Source: a virus
IMG/VR virus record: IMGVR_UViG_3300025949_000075
Coordinates: 1-29,185 of that record
Length of the DNA stretch: 29,185 nt
Strand: one strand, 5' to 3'
The translations under genes and the position numbers were made by a program. This document shows positions 2,524 through 24,500 of this stretch, piece by piece (position 1 is the first letter of the stretch; each line of letters begins with the position of its first letter). Below the pieces are notes generated by a model. That model made no database searches, had not been told where the DNA came from, and worked only from the letters and a program-made list of their open reading frames with translations.

Positions 2524-2890
2524 CCTCGGCAATATCGGCCACTACGCGGCAACCGAAGCGGCATATATGCAGGCTTGGCATATCTGGGGGCTAGATAAGC
2601 ACCCAACACAAGTCGATATGGCATTTACCGGCATCAACGCAAGTTCCATTCCATTTTCATATCTGGCGCTTGTGCGAAACACCGTAGAGCTACTACGAAC
2701 ACGAACTGACGCAAGCGGTGTTGGTCATTTTTACGACATGGACGACAGCGGCGGACAGGTCTATTCGATCTCCGGCTATACGCAGGATGGCGCGACAGGC
2801 GAGGCGTGGACGGCAACCGTCGTCGGTAGCGTGGCGACGGTCACGAAAACATTCGCGGCGCAGCGCGCAGTCGCGACGGCATTCACATGA
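2507..2890 (+). CDS. Small tail-fibre-region protein
   Basis: The ATG at 2507 gives 127 aa (starts MFPVANLGNIGHYAATEAAY) and overlaps the preceding gene by 17 bases. An ATG at 2432 in the same frame would add 25 residues but lies deep inside the upstream gene. The product is soluble with no obvious motif. Its C-terminal part (GATGEAWTATVVGSVATVT) looks beta-strand rich. The stop overlaps the next start by ATGA. It sits in the fibre cluster and is probably a structural or fibre accessory protein. No shine-Dalgarno-like sequence is strong, so translational coupling to the upstream gene is likely. Confidence 0.6.
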   Translation: MFPVANLGNIGHYAATEAAYMQAWHIWGLDKHPTQVDMAFTGINASSIPFSYLALVRNTVELLRTRTDASGVGHFYDMDDSGGQVYSISGYTQDGATGEAWTATVVGSVATVTKTFAAQRAVATAFT

Positions 2891-3468
2891 CGGCCCGCGT
2901 CTTCTCACAATGGAACGCGAACGCACTCGGCGAGGGTCTGCTGCTCGCGCAGGGTAATCTCGTCGTCACGACGGGCGCAGACAATCTTTCGAACTCGCGG
3001 AAAGTGCTCGGCACGCTGCCGAAGGGAACCGCACCCGGCTTCTACGAAACCGTTTTCTGGTCAACGCCGCAAGTCAGCCTCGGCGACAACGTCGCGACGG
3101 GCGTCGCGCAACCCGACTCGCCGCTCGATCAAGCCGTCGGCGCCGACTCGAAGAGCTGCGGCTATTACCCGGCGACAGGTGAGATCAAGCTCAACGGAAT
3201 TGTGCTCACGACGACGGCGACGGCGCACGATCCCATCGAAGAGCAAATCGACATCGGCGTTTACTTTCACCCCTTCGGCGGGCATATGTACGTCTCTTTC
3301 ATCGTCGCGGGGTCGTGGATTTATGAGGTCGATCTCGGCACCTCCGGGCTCTGGGTTCCGGCGCAGACGCTCGCGGGCGGCATTGCCGGTGAGACGAGCT
3401 CCTATACCCGCTTCGGCGGCGGAGGCGTAGCCTTCAACTATCCCCGCATCATCGCGCCGCCGTCATGA
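2887..3468 (+). CDS. SPRY-like (B30.2-type) tail-region protein
   Basis: A 193-aa protein overlapping both neighbours by ATGA. The pattern resembles SPRY/B30.2 domains: KVLGTLPKGTAPGFYETVFW, then SLGDNVATGVA, LDQAVGADSKSCGYYPATGE (about residues 78-97), IKLNGIVL, an IDIGVYFHP strand and a final GLWVPAQTL. In such domains the core is a beta-sandwich used for protein or ligand recognition. Here it would be a virion-surface binding module. The pattern match is by eye; a profile search against the SPRY family would settle it. The Gly/Ser-rich C-terminus has no other motif. Confidence 0.6.
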   Translation: MTARVFSQWNANALGEGLLLAQGNLVVTTGADNLSNSRKVLGTLPKGTAPGFYETVFWSTPQVSLGDNVATGVAQPDSPLDQAVGADSKSCGYYPATGEIKLNGIVLTTTATAHDPIEEQIDIGVYFHPFGGHMYVSFIVAGSWIYEVDLGTSGLWVPAQTLAGGIAGETSSYTRFGGGGVAFNYPRIIAPPS

Positions 3469-5624
3469 CGCAACTCTTTCACCTGCAGGGCTGGTTCGAG
3501 CGCAATACCGAAGGGCTCGGCACCGTCTATTTCGCAATCATCGACGAGGGCCTGCTCACGCGCGAGAGCGATACGCCGTCGGGCGTTGCCTTCCCTCCGC
3601 GCATCATGAACCCAGACACGTTCTCGATCAGCCGAAAGGCGACGTTCTGGCCGTGGGGTGAAACGCAGGAGGCCGCGGCAGCCGTCGCCGATCTCGAAAT
3701 CTACAACTACGATGGCGCCTACGATTTTCTGCTCAACGCCGATCTGCGCGATGCGCCTGCCGTCTTCAAGATCGTTCCCGCCGGTATGCTCGGCGGCGCG
3801 ACGACGGTCGCGGATGGCCTTGTGGTTGCGACGGTCCTGATCGACGACATTACGAGCCCGAGCGAAGACGTTATCAGGGTGAAGTTTAAGGACGTGCTCG
3901 CGCGCCTCGACGCGCAGCTACCCGTCCGCTACAACCCGCCTTATGTGGACTCGAACGCTGCAAACAAAATGGTGCCGATGAGCTTCGGCGCATGCCGCAA
4001 CGTGCAGCCGCTTCTCATCTACGCCGCCGGCATCCATGCGAGCGGCGAGCCCGTCTATCAGATTCACGACATGCCGCTTGCGAACATTGCGCAGGCGCGC
4101 GACAAGGGCGCGATCCTCGACGTCAACGCAGATCCGCCGCAGGCGGTGCCGGCGCTGAATCGAAGCGGCATCCAACTCGCGACGTTGCCGGCCGGAAAGT
4201 TGCTCGTCGATTGCTCGAGCGAGGGCACGCAGGCGATCCAAGCCGGGGCCGTCGATATTCTCGGCGGCATCGGCGAGCTCACGACGTGGCCCGTCGCTGG
4301 ATCGCCGCCGACCGGATGGAGCTACGGCGGCAGCGGCACGCACGTTCGCGTCGGTACGCCGCAGTATCCGCAAGACTACTGCGCGCAGATGACGACGCAG
4401 GCGCAATTCATTCCGACGCTTGGCGCCGTAGGCGATTACATGTATGTGACGACGCCGTTTCTGCAGCCGGGCAGTGCCTACCGTTTTCGCTTCATCCCCG
4501 ATCAGGTGCTCGGCTCCGTCACGGCGACGCCCGGCGGCTTCATGCTGCGGACGAATCTCACCGTCGATCCGACCGGAGACGTTTCAGGGAATTGGGCCGG
4601 CCCCTATATCACGGCGCCGCAAGCGGGGCGGAGTCAGAGCTTCGTCTATCGCGCGCCGAACGATGGCAACATCAGAACCATTTACGTGATTATGGTCGGC
4701 GGTGGCGTCACCAATCCGGCTTGGACTGGCACATGGCACAAGCTCACCTGCGAGCTGCTAGGCCAGTTCGAAGAGCTGCCGCTCGAAGGCATCACGCTCG
4801 AGGCCTACGCCGAGGACATTCTCTTTCTTCGCGCGTATGAAGATACGTCGCTTTGGAATCCGACATCGCTCGCGAACATCGATGCCGCGACCGGCTACAC
4901 ATTCGGCATTCATTTCGACGAGCCGCCGAACATCCTCCGCGATTGCTTGCTAGGTCCGCTGCCGAGCTACTGCGCCGACATCGCGACCGATGCGAGCGGC
5001 CAGCTCTACGCGTTCCAGCTCAAAGACCCATACGCGGAGCTTCCGATCTGCGGCTTCGACATGACGAACACGCAGCGTCCGATCGTCATCGAGCAGGACA
5101 ATGCGCCGTTCCTCACAACCGTCATGGGCGCGCGCCGCAACTGGACGCTGTCGGGTCCATCCGATTTCGTCACGGACTACGATCTCGTGCCCGCTGACGT
5201 GCGCGCGCGCTACGGGCGCAAGTCGCAGTATCAGGTTACATCGAGCGTCACGCCCGCCGGCACCTATTCGCACGCGATCGGCGCGCCGATCTTCGATTCT
5301 CTGCTCGACGATCCCGACGACGCGCAGACGGAGATCGATCGCGTCGTCGGGTTCTACGCGCCGAAAGTCTACGGCAACGGTCACGTCTTCAACGGCAAGC
5401 GGAACTTCGTCACGTTCACGACGCTATTCGACGACGCGAGCGGGCAGATCGGAAATCAGATCATTGGCACCGTGAAGGCGCCGGAGCTGTTGCTCGGCGA
5501 CATCGTCACGTTGACATACGCGCATGCGGATGGGACTACGATGTTCGATGGAACGCCGATCTTTGTCTCGGGGACAGAACTGTTTCCCTTCGGCAACAAA
5601 CTCACGATAACGGGGTGGTACTGA
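3465..5624 (+). CDS. Large tail-tip/baseplate protein
   Basis: At 719 aa this is one of the two longest complete genes in the window, and it starts with an ATGA overlap. The N-terminal 200 residues include FSISRKATFWPWGE and VLIDDITSPSEDVIRVKFKD, which resemble tail or baseplate proteins that begin with a short beta-rich region. The middle (about residues 270-440) looks like an inserted beta-sandwich with SPPTGWSYGGSGTHVRVG, possibly carbohydrate-binding-like. The C-terminal third (from ADIATDASGQLYAFQLKD) ends in a beta-rich GTPIFVSGTELFPFGNKLTI segment. No peptidase or lysozyme motif is evident. A tail-tip or baseplate role is inferred from size and position between the fibre genes and the lysis region. 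Confidence 0.6.
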   Translation: MTQLFHLQGWFERNTEGLGTVYFAIIDEGLLTRESDTPSGVAFPPRIMNPDTFSISRKATFWPWGETQEAAAAVADLEIYNYDGAYDFLLNADLRDAPAVFKIVPAGMLGGATTVADGLVVATVLIDDITSPSEDVIRVKFKDVLARLDAQLPVRYNPPYVDSNAANKMVPMSFGACRNVQPLLIYAAGIHASGEPVYQIHDMPLANIAQARDKGAILDVNADPPQAVPALNRSGIQLATLPAGKLLVDCSSEGTQAIQAGAVDILGGIGELTTWPVAGSPPTGWSYGGSGTHVRVGTPQYPQDYCAQMTTQAQFIPTLGAVGDYMYVTTPFLQPGSAYRFRFIPDQVLGSVTATPGGFMLRTNLTVDPTGDVSGNWAGPYITAPQAGRSQSFVYRAPNDGNIRTIYVIMVGGGVTNPAWTGTWHKLTCELLGQFEELPLEGITLEAYAEDILFLRAYEDTSLWNPTSLANIDAATGYTFGIHFDEPPNILRDCLLGPLPSYCADIATDASGQLYAFQLKDPYAELPICGFDMTNTQRPIVIEQDNAPFLTTVMGARRNWTLSGPSDFVTDYDLVPADVRARYGRKSQYQVTSSVTPAGTYSHAIGAPIFDSLLDDPDDAQTEIDRVVGFYAPKVYGNGHVFNGKRNFVTFTTLFDDASGQIGNQIIGTVKAPELLLGDIVTLTYAHADGTTMFDGTPIFVSGTELFPFGNKLTITGWY

Positions 5625-20971: not shown

Positions 20972-21279
20972 CAACGAACGCAGAGCGCGCCGAGTTCCGC
21001 GCACGCCGCCGCGGCCACACATTCCAGTTTCCGCCGCCGCGCGAGGTCGAGGCATGGTCGGCGACGATCGAAGATCGAAGCCTCTTCCGCATGGTGCTCT
21101 GCGGGCTGCTGCTCGCGCTCCTCGTCGTGCTCGGGCTCGGATTTTTCACGCGCGCCGCCGAGGACTTCAAGCACGAGGCATGGGCGAAGCAGGCCGTCGA
21201 TGAGTGCGTCGCGAATGGGCAGACGCCGCACGTCTATCGCGACAATCGAGACTATGTTTTAGGAGTTCGCTGCGAATGA
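20968..21279 (+). CDS. Membrane protein, single segment
   Basis: An ATGA overlap with the preceding gene. The 103-aa product has a basic N-terminus (AERAEFRARRRGHTFQFPPP), one strong membrane segment at about residues 40-62 (RMVLCGLLLALLVVLGLGFF), and a C-terminal domain with two cysteines (VDECVANGQTPHVYRDN and VRCE). If the N-terminus is inside, the C-terminal part would be periplasmic and could hold a disulfide. No family is recognised. It belongs to the three-gene membrane cluster. Confidence 0.6.
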   Translation: MTTNAERAEFRARRRGHTFQFPPPREVEAWSATIEDRSLFRMVLCGLLLALLVVLGLGFFTRAAEDFKHEAWAKQAVDECVANGQTPHVYRDNRDYVLGVRCE

Positions 21280-21488
21280 ACTACCTCGTCGCACTCATCG
21301 TCGGCGCGTGGTTCACGCAGTGCCTTGTAACGGCGCACTACGAGCACGAGGCCGCGGGCATTTCGAAATGGGCGTATGCGCTGCTTGCGATGCTCATTTC
21401 CTTGTTCTGGCCGATCGCACTCGGCGTCGAGCTCCGTTATCTCATCCTCGGGAAACCGAAGATACCGAAGCCAAAACTCGACGCTTGA
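21276..21488 (+). CDS. Small two-segment membrane protein
   Basis: The ATG at 21276 overlaps the previous stop (ATGA). The 70-aa product has two hydrophobic parts: MNYLVALIVGAWFTQCLVTA and SKWAYALLAMLISLFWPIAL (about residues 30-49), followed by a basic tail (GKPKIPKPKL). It resembles small phage membrane proteins of holin-like topology, but it is in the early operon, so a superinfection-exclusion or membrane-remodelling role is as plausible. It ends the tightly overlapping run; a 173-base gap follows. Confidence 0.6.
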   Translation: MNYLVALIVGAWFTQCLVTAHYEHEAAGISKWAYALLAMLISLFWPIALGVELRYLILGKPKIPKPKLDA

Positions 21489-21526
21489 CGACACCGCGCC
21501 GCGCGCGCAAAGTTTTTCACCGCCGG

Positions 21527-21661
21527 GGACAAGGCCGCGCAGCCCTGTCCGACCTGACTCGGACTTCACCCGGCACTTCCGCAACGCCCGAGTCAGGGGG
21601 AACACATGAAGCAAACATTACGGCGACCGCCGAGGGGGAAATATCCCCGAGGTGGTCGCGC
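21527..21661 (+). promoter_or_regulatory. Structured mRNA leader of the methyltransferase gene
   Basis: The 173-base gap (21489-21661) contains overlapping inverted repeats. H0 pairs GGACA 21527-21531 with TGTCC 21546-21550. H1 pairs GTCCGA 21547-21552 with TCGGAC 21559-21564. H2 pairs CCTGACTCGG 21553-21562 with CCGAGTCAGG 21588-21597, ten perfect pairs. H1 shares bases with H0 and H2, so it excludes both. H3 pairs CGACCGCC 21624-21631 with GGTGGTCG 21651-21658, with an inner GGGG-CCCC stem, and covers the methyltransferase ribosome-binding site GAGGT at 21649-21653. Confidence 0.5.
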
Positions 21662-21665
21662 ATGA
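21606..21665 (+). CDS. Candidate 19-aa leader peptide upstream of the methyltransferase
   Basis: An ATG at 21606 with AGGGGGAA immediately upstream opens a 19-codon ORF, MKQTLRRPPRGKYPRGGRA, whose stop overlaps the methyltransferase start (ATGA at 21662-21665). The peptide is Arg/Pro/Gly-rich with a Pro-Pro pair. Its translation would pass through hairpin H3 and expose the next ribosome-binding site. Too short to judge by coding statistics; a chance ORF cannot be excluded. Confidence 0.4.
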   Translation: MKQTLRRPPRGKYPRGGRA

Positions 21666-22351
21666 GCGCGCGCGTCGAAGTCATCGGCAACGCCACGCTC
21701 TACCTCGGTGATTGCCGCGAGATTCTGCCGACGCTGCCGAAGGTCGATGCGCTGGTGACTGACCCGCCGTATGGGATTGGCTGGAAACCGAGAGTCAATC
21801 ACCAAGACCAGACATGGATTGACCGCATCGACTTCGACATACGTGACTTCTTGGCCGTTGGTACGCATCACCTGATTTGGGGCGCGCAGTATTTCGCTGA
21901 CAAATTGCCCGCGCATGAGGGCTGGCTGACGTGGTGCAAGCGACCTGTTGACATGGATTTTTCAAATGACGACAGAAGCTATGCGACGACCGAACTAGCG
22001 TGGCGCGACTGGGGCAAAGCTAAGTTCATCTGCCACGTTTGGGATGGCGGCATGCGTGCCGGTGCGCGCGAGAACCGAGATTTTTGCCATCCGTCGCAAA
22101 AGCCCGTCGAGGTGATGGAATGGTGCGTAAAACAGCTGCCGCCTGATCGGATGATTGTTCTCGACCCCTTCATGGGCTCCGGCACCACCGGTGTCGCCTG
22201 CATGAACCTCGGCCGCAAGTTCATCGGCATCGAGATAGAGCCGAAATACTTCGACATCGCATGCGAGCGCATTTCCCGCGCCGAGGCTCAACCGAGCCTT
22301 TTCTCGCCTCCTGACCCTGAGCAAATAGACGCCTTCGGCGGTGCCAAATGA
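21662..22351 (+). CDS. Orphan DNA methyltransferase (N6-adenine or N4-cytosine, beta-type order)
   Basis: The ATG at 21662 overlaps the leader ORF and has GAGGT eight bases upstream. The 229-aa product has the catalytic motif DPPYGIGW at about residues 34-41 and the S-adenosylmethionine motif DPFMGSGTTGVACMNL at about 168-183. The catalytic motif coming first is the beta-class order. DPPY is compatible with exocyclic amino methylation of adenine or cytosine. No restriction endonuclease partner is nearby, so it is likely an orphan enzyme that protects phage DNA or modifies regulation. Its stop overlaps the primase gene (ATGA). Sequence specificity cannot be read from here. Confidence 0.88.
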   Translation: MSARVEVIGNATLYLGDCREILPTLPKVDALVTDPPYGIGWKPRVNHQDQTWIDRIDFDIRDFLAVGTHHLIWGAQYFADKLPAHEGWLTWCKRPVDMDFSNDDRSYATTELAWRDWGKAKFICHVWDGGMRAGARENRDFCHPSQKPVEVMEWCVKQLPPDRMIVLDPFMGSGTTGVACMNLGRKFIGIEIEPKYFDIACERISRAEAQPSLFSPPDPEQIDAFGGAK

Positions 22352-24366
22352 CGCCGCTCGAGCAACGCCCCGAGGCGCCGGTCCTGCTCGTGCACGCCCG
22401 CGCCGACATCGCCGACGACTGGCTCGCCTCGCACGTCGCCGCGGCCGAGCGCGCCTACCCTGCCTTCGTCGTCCTGCCCCTGCACGGCCTCGACGTCGAC
22501 GCTGAAGCGCTTGCAGGGCGCGACGTCGTCATCTGGCCATGGATGGGTGCCCCGAGCCAGCGCGCGGCGTTACGGCCCGCTGCGGGCGTTCTGGCGCGTA
22601 CGGCGAAACGGGTGCGCCTCATCGCGCCCTCAGCCGACGAGGCCATCGGCCCCGGCGATCTGAACGGGCATGAGCCGATCGCATGGGCGAAAGCGCGCTG
22701 CGAGGACGTGGCCGCGACGCCCGTCGAGGATCTCGAGGCGCTCTGGTTCCCCGAGGAGCCGGATGCTCCGGTAATTCCGGAAATAGAAGAGCGCGCGCTC
22801 GTCAGCGCCTACGCGGACTCGCACCCGGACATCCTCGAGGAGCCGCCGCCCGAGCCCGTCGATCTCTTCGAGAAGCAGCCGCTTCCGCGCCTCGCCGAGC
22901 GGTTCCTGCCGCCCGCGATCGCGCCCTTCATCTTCGATCAGAGCCAGATCATCGGGTCCGACCCCTGCGTGCTCTTCATGTCGGCGCTCGTCGCGTGCGC
23001 GGCGGTGACGAGCGACTTCATCCGCATACAGCCGAAGCAGTTTGAACACGGCTGGAAAGAGAGCGCGCGGCTCTGGGGCGCCTTCGTCGGCGATCCCTCG
23101 GTGAAGAAGACGCCGCCGCTCGCGCGCGCCACCGCGCACCTTCGCAAGCTCGATCTCGAATACGCCGAGGCCGGCGCCGAGGCACAGACGCGCTACAAAA
23201 TCGCGCTCAAGGTGCACGCCAAGGCCGAAGCGCGCTGGATCGACGCGCAGGCCAAGCACGCGCCGTGTGCGCCCCTCGACGACGCGCCCGAGCGCCCGCC
23301 AACGAAGCGCATCATCGTCCAAGATGCGACGATCGAGGCCGTCGCCGACGTGCTCATCGACAATCCGCAGGGCGTGCTCGTGCTCCAAGACGAGCTCTCG
23401 GGCTTCTTCGGCTCGATGGACGCCTACCGCGCGCAGGGCGGCAAGGATCGGGCGTTCTGGCTCGAGGCCTACAACGGCGGGCCGCGGCGAATCGATCGCA
23501 TCGGCCGCGGAACCATGTCGGTTCCGAACCTGAGCGTTTGCATGCTCGGCGGCATCCAGCCCGCTGCGATCCGCGCCGTCGCGCAGAAGAGCGTCGAGGA
23601 CGGGCTCTTGCAGCGGTTCATGATCGTATGCGCGGAGGGCGGGGAGGCCGTCGGCGACGACCGGCGCGCGGACACGGGCGCGTCAACGCTCTACCGCGGC
23701 ATTCTCGACGAGCTCGCGCGGCAAACCGGAGACCCCGAGAAGCCGGTCCTGCTCGAGCCCGGCGCGCGCGAGATCATGCTCGACGCCGAGAAGAAGCTCA
23801 CGGCCTTCGCCAAGCTCGATCGCCTCCCGCTGCGGATGCGCTACCAGATGGGCAAATGGTCGGGCCTCTTCGCGCGGCTCTGCCTCACCTATCACGCGAT
23901 CGAGTGCGCGGCGCTCGGTATGCCTGTCGCCGGCGCCGTGGCCGCGGACATCGCCGCGCGCGTGCACGCCCTCCTCTTCGAGTATCTGTTCTGGCACCTC
24001 AAGCACTTCTATGAGGCCGTCATCGGCGACACCGCGAACGAAATGGAGCTGCTCTACCGCGTCGCCGACTGGATTCTCGCGGCCGCGCCAGATCGCTTCA
24101 CGGCATCGCACGTCGCCAAGGGCGTCTCTGCGTGGCGTGGTTCCACGTGGAACACCCGCCGGAACGTGCTCGATCAGCTCGAAGTGTGCGGATGGGTCAC
24201 GCGCGCCCAGACGGTTCGCTATGGGCACCATGCGTATTTGGTCAATCCGAGGACGCGGGAAATGTTCGGAGACCGCATAGAGGCCGAGCTGAAGAGGCGA
24301 CACGAGGGCCGGGCGGCGATCCTCGATGACGTCGTCGGAAGGCCTACTAAGTACGAGAATGAATGA
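22348..24366 (+). CDS. DUF3987 primase/helicase-like replication protein
   Basis: A 672-aa product starting by ATGA overlap. The N-terminal 165 residues (LLVHARADIADDWLASHVAA, DVVIWPWMG) look like a Toprim-like or Rossmann-like region, a weak visual resemblance. The DUF3987 core begins near PPAIAPFIFDQSQI. It has a Walker A-like loop GDPSVKKT at about residues 248-255, and GVLVLQDELSGFFGSM near 343-358. The KDRAFWLEAYNGG, DRIGRGTMSVPNLS and LGGIQPAAIR segments are typical of the family. The Gly before the catalytic Lys is replaced by Lys, as in some family members. It likely acts in phage DNA replication. Confidence 0.8.
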   Translation: MTPLEQRPEAPVLLVHARADIADDWLASHVAAAERAYPAFVVLPLHGLDVDAEALAGRDVVIWPWMGAPSQRAALRPAAGVLARTAKRVRLIAPSADEAIGPGDLNGHEPIAWAKARCEDVAATPVEDLEALWFPEEPDAPVIPEIEERALVSAYADSHPDILEEPPPEPVDLFEKQPLPRLAERFLPPAIAPFIFDQSQIIGSDPCVLFMSALVACAAVTSDFIRIQPKQFEHGWKESARLWGAFVGDPSVKKTPPLARATAHLRKLDLEYAEAGAEAQTRYKIALKVHAKAEARWIDAQAKHAPCAPLDDAPERPPTKRIIVQDATIEAVADVLIDNPQGVLVLQDELSGFFGSMDAYRAQGGKDRAFWLEAYNGGPRRIDRIGRGTMSVPNLSVCMLGGIQPAAIRAVAQKSVEDGLLQRFMIVCAEGGEAVGDDRRADTGASTLYRGILDELARQTGDPEKPVLLEPGAREIMLDAEKKLTAFAKLDRLPLRMRYQMGKWSGLFARLCLTYHAIECAALGMPVAGAVAADIAARVHALLFEYLFWHLKHFYEAVIGDTANEMELLYRVADWILAAAPDRFTASHVAKGVSAWRGSTWNTRRNVLDQLEVCGWVTRAQTVRYGHHAYLVNPRTREMFGDRIEAELKRRHEGRAAILDDVVGRPTKYENE

Positions 24367-24387
24367 ATGATAAACCTGAATGCCCTT

Positions 24388-24459
24388 GTTCACCCTCGCG
24401 CACATGTGAGTCAGTCAGTCGCATTTCTCAATCTTTCCTATGTGTGCGCGAGGGTGAAC
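24388..24459. repeat. Perfect 17-bp inverted repeat with 38-base spacer
   Basis: GTTCACCCTCGCGCACA at 24388-24404 is exactly complementary to TGTGCGCGAGGGTGAAC at 24443-24459. The spacer holds a GTCAGTCAGTC run and then a T-rich stretch. Downstream, CGTTTA occurs twice at 24471-24476 and 24482-24487, 11 bases apart. The arms lie in the 134-base gap after the primase gene. Possible roles are a replication origin, an RNA hairpin or a protein-binding site. Confidence 0.75.
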
Positions 24460-24500
24460 GTGGGAAGAAGCGTTTAACTACCGTTTAGGAGTGTGAAGAC

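Follow-up and report, generated by a model that had tools for sequence, protein, structure and literature searches.

The window analysed here is a stretch of 29,185 nt of viral DNA (IMG/VR record IMGVR_UViG_3300025949_000075), in which a DNA methyltransferase gene (N6_N4_Mtase, PF01555; 21662-22351, plus strand) overlaps the replication gene of its operon, a DUF3987 gene (PHROG: DNA helicase; 22348-24366, plus strand). Upstream lies an ORF of 70 aa (21276-21488), for which relatives were searched and none were found. Reading of the sequence confirmed a gap of 173 bases (21489-21661) between the TGA stop codon of this ORF (21486-21488) and the methyltransferase ATG at 21662, in an operon whose genes a preliminary description had found to be joined almost throughout by four-base overlaps. 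A 19-codon ORF (MKQTLRRPPRGKYPRGGRA; 21606-21665, plus strand) begins within the gap and its stop codon overlaps the methyltransferase start as ATGA, so that the methyltransferase too obeys the four-base-overlap rule. For comparison we collected methyltransferase relatives from the best 80 of 407 IMG/VR loci and from 61 genome loci; 112 of these 141 entered the script and 103 were scored. An ORF of at least 40 codons overlapped the methyltransferase start by exactly four bases in 53 of the 103 loci of this sample and by 1-20 bases in 73. The frame of the methyltransferase is itself open for 354 bases 5' of its ATG (21308-21661), which is probably due to chance in GC-rich DNA.

Four stems had been reported for the gap, H0 (21527-21550), H1 (21547-21564), H2 (21553-21597) and H3, and all were found upon reading, H2 with its ten Watson-Crick pairs. 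Taken singly, the first three are ordinary for a GC-rich window, with 100, 136 and 121 plus-strand clusters at least as stable as H0, H1 and H2, respectively. H3 is exceptional: only three plus-strand clusters are at least as stable, H3 itself included, and its RNA fold (z -4.48) was equalled by 1 of 200 shuffles. Folding of the leader as the preliminary description had proposed gave a divided result, in that positions 21489-21700, including H3, folded better than shuffled sequences (z -2.20, 3/200 shuffles) and the 117 nt from 21489 to 21605 did not (z -0.24, 71/200 shuffles). Among the 104 methyltransferase loci scored (viral sample limited to the best 80 of 407) the window had the most stable start region. 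Stem stability in the window taken alone would not decide whether the leader is real.

Relatives of the DUF3987 gene were few in IMG/VR, namely L083 (59%), L084 (56%), L085 (46%) and L082, an identical DUF3987 fragment without the upstream part. A profile scan returned the same four contigs, and only distant relatives were found among named phages and plasmids. Upstream of the DUF3987 operon in L083, L084 and L085 we found a leader with the same skeleton as in the window. Hand alignment of the family gave the order P1 - GACA - P2 - P3 - A - P1' - P4, in which the P3 loop is complementary to the P4 loop. The conserved RNA spans 21522-21600 on the plus strand of the window and comprises a three-way junction (P1, P2, P3) and P4 at the ribosome-binding site. 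P1 is formed by GCCGGG (21522-21527) and CCCGGC (21569-21574) and is followed by the unpaired junction letters GACA (21528-21531), P2 by AGG (21532-21534) and CCT (21544-21546), and P3, which is identical to H1, by GTCCGA (21547-21552) and TCGGAC (21559-21564). A second junction stretch, TTCA (21565-21568), supplies the A before the 3' strand of P1. The P3 loop CCTGAC (PKa, 21553-21558) pairs with GTCAGG (PKb, 21592-21597), which is the core of H2 and lies largely in the loop of the P4 hairpin (GCCC/GGGG, 21586-21600), short in the window. By reading, PKb and the 3' strand of P4 contain the Shine-Dalgarno sequence AGGGGG (21595-21600). At a length of about 80 nt, the element is a compact leader with a conserved structured domain and a putative expression platform, as is expected of a riboswitch.

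This fold changes the picture of H1 and H2, which had been described as mutually exclusive. H1 is P3, and the six H2 pairs CCTGAC/GTCAGG are the loop-loop helix; since the H1 loop (21553-21558) pairs with 21592-21597, both can coexist, and their interpretation as alternative states is unsupported. Exclusion does apply to the outer four pairs of H2 (TCGG/CCGA), which compete with H1, and not to the conserved six. In 12 other members the pairing extended beyond six by no pair (10 members) or by one pair (L084 and L187), and the ten-pair H2, made by invading P3, is peculiar to the window. The minimum-energy fold of the window consists of H0 and the extended H2 rather than the family fold, which the unconstrained minimum-energy fold reproduces in L083 and L085 and not in L084. 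P1, P2 and the pairing of the H1 loop were absent from the preliminary description.

Leaders outside the helicase group were sought in IMG/VR with a pattern made from L083 and L084, GCCGGGACAN{34,62}ACCGGCRCHT. The scan gave 92 stretches, 80 of which were ranked by P3 and loop pairing; the remaining 12 were examined with a covariance model, R1, whereby L247 and repeats were added. Most members ranked high; the exceptions, L197 and a repeat of L083, were admitted by eye or on earlier knowledge. The leader RNA was found in 15 phage loci (the window, L083, L084, L085, L167, L172, L173, L187, L189, L191, L197, L206, L207, L214 and L247), with L189 and L206 being near duplicates; L195, L211, L238, L239 and L240 are repeats of members, and L218, L226 and L280 are contigs of L084, L083 and L085, respectively. 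Because the pattern behind ten of the members prescribes P1, GACA and the letters following P1, the conservation of these letters is overstated, and members were chosen among the pattern matches partly by P3 and PK pairing. GACA and the A before P1' are also present in the window and L085, neither of which matches the pattern, as well as in L083 and L084 from which it was made.

MAFFT alignments of mixed members misplaced P2 and P3, and R1 was therefore seeded from four similar pattern-found members (L172, L173, L191 and L214) and then extended by model. In 0.8 Mb, R1 found L085, which has a different P1 pair and came in via the helicase, with 45.5 bits (E 6e-9), and L207, L206, L189, L167 and L083 with 38-61 bits. 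L084 (22.7 bits) and L197 (21.6 bits) were barely above the best non-member, L157 (20.5 bits). Under default filters in 0.8 Mb the window was not among the R1 matches with E of at most 5; with filters off in 701 nt it reached 23.4 bits, no more than some chance matches under R2. This second model, R2, was built from 14 leaders with the window excluded from the seed, and its match to the window covered 21521-21604 and scored 38.2 bits (E 3.3e-8), compared to 11.2 bits for the next best match in the window. As the window carries GCCGGGGACA, which is outside the search pattern, it had no head start in this score. In 0.8 Mb, 22 R2 matches reached at least 38.2 bits; 21 of them were seed members or repeats of these, and the window (E 9e-7) came last and is the lowest-scoring member. 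The first match below it, L192 (29.8 bits), the best of the viral loci that share no more than the search pattern, was left out as uncertain. The best R2 score in 100 control loci (608 kb) was 17.2 bits; four regions of named phages or plasmids with a distant DUF3987 relative, out of six retrieved, were also run with R2 and gave no match.

Other searches added no members. A pattern independent of P1 gave seven loci, five of them known contigs and two chance matches, and a loose script descriptor applied to 157 sequences was too unspecific. Exact H3 or H2 patterns had no match in IMG/VR. The window leader had only chance-level blastn matches in phage and plasmid records, the L214 leader had one chance match in named phages, and locus L207 had none in named phages. 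The strict pattern found no member in approximately 687 bacterial genomes, and no cultured example is known here. The bare pattern matched 15 of 398 and 15 of 299 genomes (10 drawn twice), reversed-pattern controls matched 8 and 10, and the 31 bacterial loci sharing only the bare pattern scored up to 27.2 bits under R2. A scan of 10 bacterial genomes with R2, with 150 candidates scored per genome, gave a match in 0 of 10.

The preliminary description had suggested that homologous leaders be aligned and searched for compensatory changes, and these were found: P2, P3, P4 and the pairing of the P3 loop with the P4 loop covary. In a model-guided alignment of 14 leaders, which is fitted to the structure and thus leans towards it, 96.7% of cells paired and 14 of 19 pairs were changed on both sides. 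The covariation score was 0.454 compared to 0.122 (sd 0.021) for shuffled alignments (0/500 as good), and 0.05-0.11 when columns were slid by 1-3. In P4, 91.3% of cells were paired and all four pairs were changed on both sides; P1 hardly varied, at least partly because the search fixed it. When the 3' arms of P2, P3 and PK were re-dealt among members, pairing was 0.63-0.68 compared to 1.0 for the true arms, which were set by hand and therefore pair by construction, and none of 2000 re-deals was as good (the comparison left out L206 as a duplicate, L167 for PK, and a single bulged C of L083).

The loop-loop contact was also evident from single leaders. A member's own P3 loop, scored against the stretch before the start codon, had a mean of 6.07 and reached at least 6 in 13 of 15 leaders, compared to a mean of 3.42 for the loops of other members (at least 6 in 2% of 206) and 3.29 for shuffled loops (at least 6 in 2.9%). 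For the pair CCTGAC/GTCAGG of the window, 6 of 300 shuffled loops did as well; the corresponding numbers were 24/300 for L247 and 13/300 for L187, and L167 and L197 showed no convincing kissing pair. In each of the 13 leaders whose loops pair well, 5-11 nt separate the end of PKb from the start codon. The earlier proposal of a leader that acts in cis and sequesters its ribosome-binding site is supported, and the leader very likely controls translation.

The stretch before P1 was not part of any member search. Over the 15 leaders, the match to TATAAT was best for hexamers whose last base lies 6 nt before P1 (mean 3.13 of 6 positions compared to a background of 1.28, sd 0.26), and nAnnnT ending 5-8 nt before P1 occurred in 13 of 15 leaders; six further ranges of equal width gave 1-4 of 15. 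This spacing makes the first base of P1 the likely transcription start, which for the window is predicted at or near 21522. The candidate promoter of the window consists of a -35 box TTGACG (21485-21490), a 17-nt spacer and a -10 box CAAAGT (21508-21513) on the plus strand; the -10 box is weak (3/6) and ends 8 nt before P1. TTGACG with spacers of 17-19 was also found in L083, L084 and L214, the -35 box not being shared across the family. Complete -35/-10 promoters outscored most shuffles in no more than 7 of the 15 leaders, among them the window, for which 6 of 200 shuffles were as good, and a strict promoter scan gave no site at the window leader.

A replication gene (DUF1376 or other initiator, primase, DUF3987) lies downstream of the leader in 14 of 15 loci. 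For 11 leaders the downstream gene was not part of any search; five of these are followed by DUF1376, three by PHROG replication or replication-initiation genes two by CHC2-zinc primases and one (L187) by an unassigned gene. The remaining four loci are the DUF3987 operons. In 10 of 15 members nothing intervenes, the leader being followed directly by the initiator or primase as first ORF. In L084 and L085 the leader is followed by proteins of 85 and 71 residues without Pfam match, which overlap the DUF3987 gene, and in L083 by a 19-codon ORF and a C5 cytosine methyltransferase (2802-3989).

In all four phages of the helicase group a very long hairpin whose stem letters differ lies directly 3' of the DUF3987 gene, at 24383-24464 in the window, approximately 6030-6110 in L083, 4384-4475 in L084 and 5528-5617 in L085 (RNA z -5.45, -5.81, -5.77 and -5.07, respectively; 0/200 shuffles each). 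A strict inverted-repeat search found those of the window and L084 and another in L197 (approximately 5306-5392, 3' of the CHC2 primase); it missed the bulged hairpins of L083 and L085, and found none in the other 10 members. The stem rather than its letters seems to be conserved, and the hairpin might serve as an origin of replication, end an mRNA or mark a processing site.

The proposed purpose of the leader, dosing a DNA methyltransferase, does not agree with this gene content, as in other loci no methyltransferase stands between the leader and the replication genes. A control element specific to methyltransferases was not found either: 96 of the 100 control loci, none of which exceeded 17.2 bits under R2, are methyltransferase loci, and L083 has another methyltransferase class after the leader, from which it follows that the methyltransferase is a passenger. 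When the leader was compared with 84 loci by blastn, the matches lay around the methyltransferase start or were short and at chance level, and methyltransferase homologues as a source of leader homologues yielded none by blastn or R2. The slot between leader and DUF3987 gene holds unrelated methyltransferase classes in related phages, C5 in L083 (2802-3989) and N6/N4 in the window (21662-22351), and is perhaps an insertion hotspot. Upstream of the L084 leader, 47 bases (1390-1436) are 89% identical to part of the methylase gene gp50 of EBPR podovirus 1, on the strand opposite to the annotated gene, and are perhaps a remnant of another methyltransferase.

H3 (21623-21659, plus strand) has 9 + 4-5 pairs with opposed GA/GA bases and holds GAGGT (21649-21653), the Shine-Dalgarno sequence of the methyltransferase. 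The sole counterpart of the 19-codon ORF and H3 was found in L083, where an ORF of the same length (from 2746) overlaps the next gene as GTGA and a hairpin stands in the same place. The conservation expected for the short ORF is thus limited to one counterpart recognised by position, with 29 of 57 bases and, by reading, 6 of 19 residues identical; tblastn with the window peptide did not find it. The L083 hairpin has different letters and a weaker fold (z -1.46, 18/200 shuffles) than the window H3, and by reading both hairpins contain the Shine-Dalgarno sequence of the next gene. The 19-codon ORF and H3 may couple the methyltransferase to the leader, which would fit translational coupling and rests on two loci, and with two loci only, H3 may also be due to chance. 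By analogy with the uORF of the M. tuberculosis ppe2 riboswitch (PMC11260477), the likeliest role of the pair would be translation through H3 followed by reinitiation at the inserted methyltransferase. In attenuation of the erm type, a peptide carrying a conserved stalling sequence is translated, and the alternative hairpins are conserved as well. Such features were not found among the 15 loci, in which the peptide occurs twice with barely similar sequences, and the extension of H2 that would provide the alternative hairpin is absent from the 12 other members checked.

Based on the computed fold, covariation, loop-loop complementarity, Shine-Dalgarno position, -10 placement and association with replication genes, we infer with a probability of roughly two thirds that the leader is a translational switch for phage replication operons, in which a folded RNA hides the Shine-Dalgarno sequence. 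Unlike the features just listed, switching as such, the sign of control and the sensing of a small molecule or factor common to the phages or their hosts are inferred. The transcript would begin at P1, and the three-way junction with its unpaired GACA and A would present the P3 loop, which would kiss the P4 loop, the latter holding together with the P4 3' strand the Shine-Dalgarno sequence of the first ORF. From this position of the Shine-Dalgarno sequence the folded state should block initiation, so that with the kissing complex formed ribosomes could not load and the replication operon would be off, until a signal binding or loosening the junction frees the site (or with the reverse sign). 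In the window and L083, where the first ORF is a 19-codon minicistron, translating it would open H3, and ribosomes would be handed over at ATGA or GTGA to the methyltransferase and then to the DUF3987 gene. Since GACA and the A are kept in front of differing downstream proteins, a single signal common to all members is favoured over self-repression by a downstream product. A more specific form of this switch would be an orphan riboswitch class of phages, whose junction would sense a metabolite or nucleotide of the infected cell, whose P3-P4 kissing would time synthesis of the initiator, primase or helicase, and whose minicistron would pass the decision to the inserted methyltransferase; we consider this a tentative proposal with somewhat less than even odds.

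Control by a phage protein would also be in line with a leader sitting on the Shine-Dalgarno sequence of replication genes. A replication or single-strand binding protein might bind the leader and repress translation, as described in PMC535899 for gp32 of T4 and RB69, which are autogenous translational repressors. The first proteins after the leader differ between loci (DUF1376, other initiators, CHC2 primase, proteins of 71-85 aa, the 19-codon ORF), and binding by the own product thus cannot be general, although a shared protein encoded elsewhere might act in this way; we consider this explanation unlikely. Alternatively, the leader might be a constitutive 5'-terminal structure without any signal, P1 protecting the mRNA from decay at a fixed low translation. 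The -10 boxes do place the transcript start at P1, but protection would call neither for the complementarity between P3 loop and Shine-Dalgarno region that 13 of 15 leaders show nor for a covarying P4, and we regard a purely constitutive role as distinctly unlikely.

An antisense RNA might instead bind the P3 loop and block the loop pairing that opens or closes the initiator site, in the manner of IncI-alpha and IncB plasmids. Similar parts are present (a replication initiator, loop-to-leader pairing by the Shine-Dalgarno sequence, and a short ORF in two loci), and P3 loops that differ between members fit antisense control and kissing equally, but the unpaired junction letters would be left unexplained, and antisense control appears improbable. 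More improbable still is attenuation of the methyltransferase by exclusive H1 and H2 stems and a regulatory 19-residue peptide, as first described, for which the exceptional H3 and the 19-codon ORF at the same place in L083 speak. The leader is shared by phages without a methyltransferase after it, none of the 12 other members checked has the outer four pairs of H2, the two peptides are identical at 6 of 19 residues and are not linked by tblastn, and 96 methyltransferase loci are without such an RNA. Chance pairing in GC-rich DNA would account for H0, H1 and H2 being individually common and for a 117-nt leader that folds like shuffled sequence, but it is hardly credible in view of the covariation, the model scores and the -10 spacing.

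No match at gathering threshold was found for the window among 4227 families of Rfam 15, and the match to mir-631 in a permissive search was attributed to chance (22.4 bits compared to a threshold of 59, E 0.28). In the 10 of 15 members covered, L084 had no Rfam match, L085 and L083 had one each far below threshold, and L172, L211 (the L173 leader), L214, L207, L189 and L187 had none up to E 1; L191, L206, L167, L197 and L247 were outside this scope. In the openly licensed PMC literature we found no phage replication leader of this kind, and a description elsewhere is possible. The leader family thus seems to be a switch for the replication of phage DNA that has gone unrecognised. Its individual parts are known from B12 riboswitches, the repZ leaders of plasmids and gene 32 of T4, a resemblance of parts rather than established kinship.

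Purine riboswitches combine a three-way junction, whose junction letters are conserved, with kissing of the loops of two aptamer hairpins. The leader has in common with them the three-way junction, the conserved junction letters and a loop contact, but its contact is with the Shine-Dalgarno hairpin instead. The operator of T4 gene 32 is a pseudoknot, and the repZ and repA leaders of plasmids are antisense-regulated, with a leader ORF that precedes the pseudoknot, whereas in the phage leader the ORF follows. Leader pseudoknots of ColIb-P9 (IncI-alpha) repZ and IncL/M repA are cited in PMC10724649, and resemble the proposed phage switch in that RNA pairing switches translation of a replication initiator. 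PMC535899 describes the gp32 mRNA targets of T4 and RB69 as diverged in sequence and similar in structure; as proposed for the leader family, a leader RNA structure controls a phage replication gene there, but the gene 32 operator is bound by its own product and belongs to one gene family. For the ppe2 gene of M. tuberculosis, PMC11260477 proposes a new Class IIb variant of the B12 riboswitch that is a translational OFF switch, names the kissing loop as a conserved feature of B12 riboswitches, and gives evidence for termination-reinitiation at a downstream ORF which is without its own Shine-Dalgarno sequence and overlaps a short uORF as AUGA. This overlap is the layout of the 19-codon ORF and methyltransferase in the window, although the methyltransferase has its own Shine-Dalgarno sequence inside H3, and B12 riboswitches have a central four-way junction and a B12 box, while the window leader had no Rfam match. 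Riboswitch-type RNAs in phages are represented by the glutamine riboswitch of phages such as Melnitz, which according to PMC9004378 resembles the glnA family and adjoins a tmRNA gene, whereas none of the leader members scanned matched an Rfam model.

The timing of the replication initiator is a core decision of phage infection. The leader, apparently with its own promoter, would represent a general control of replication at the RNA level, in which a conserved RNA on the ribosome-binding site of the initiator is common to differing families of replication proteins. Its size of about 80 nt makes ligand, sign of control and structure directly testable. The occurrence of the leader before a minicistron and a methyltransferase further suggests how inserted genes can borrow leader control.
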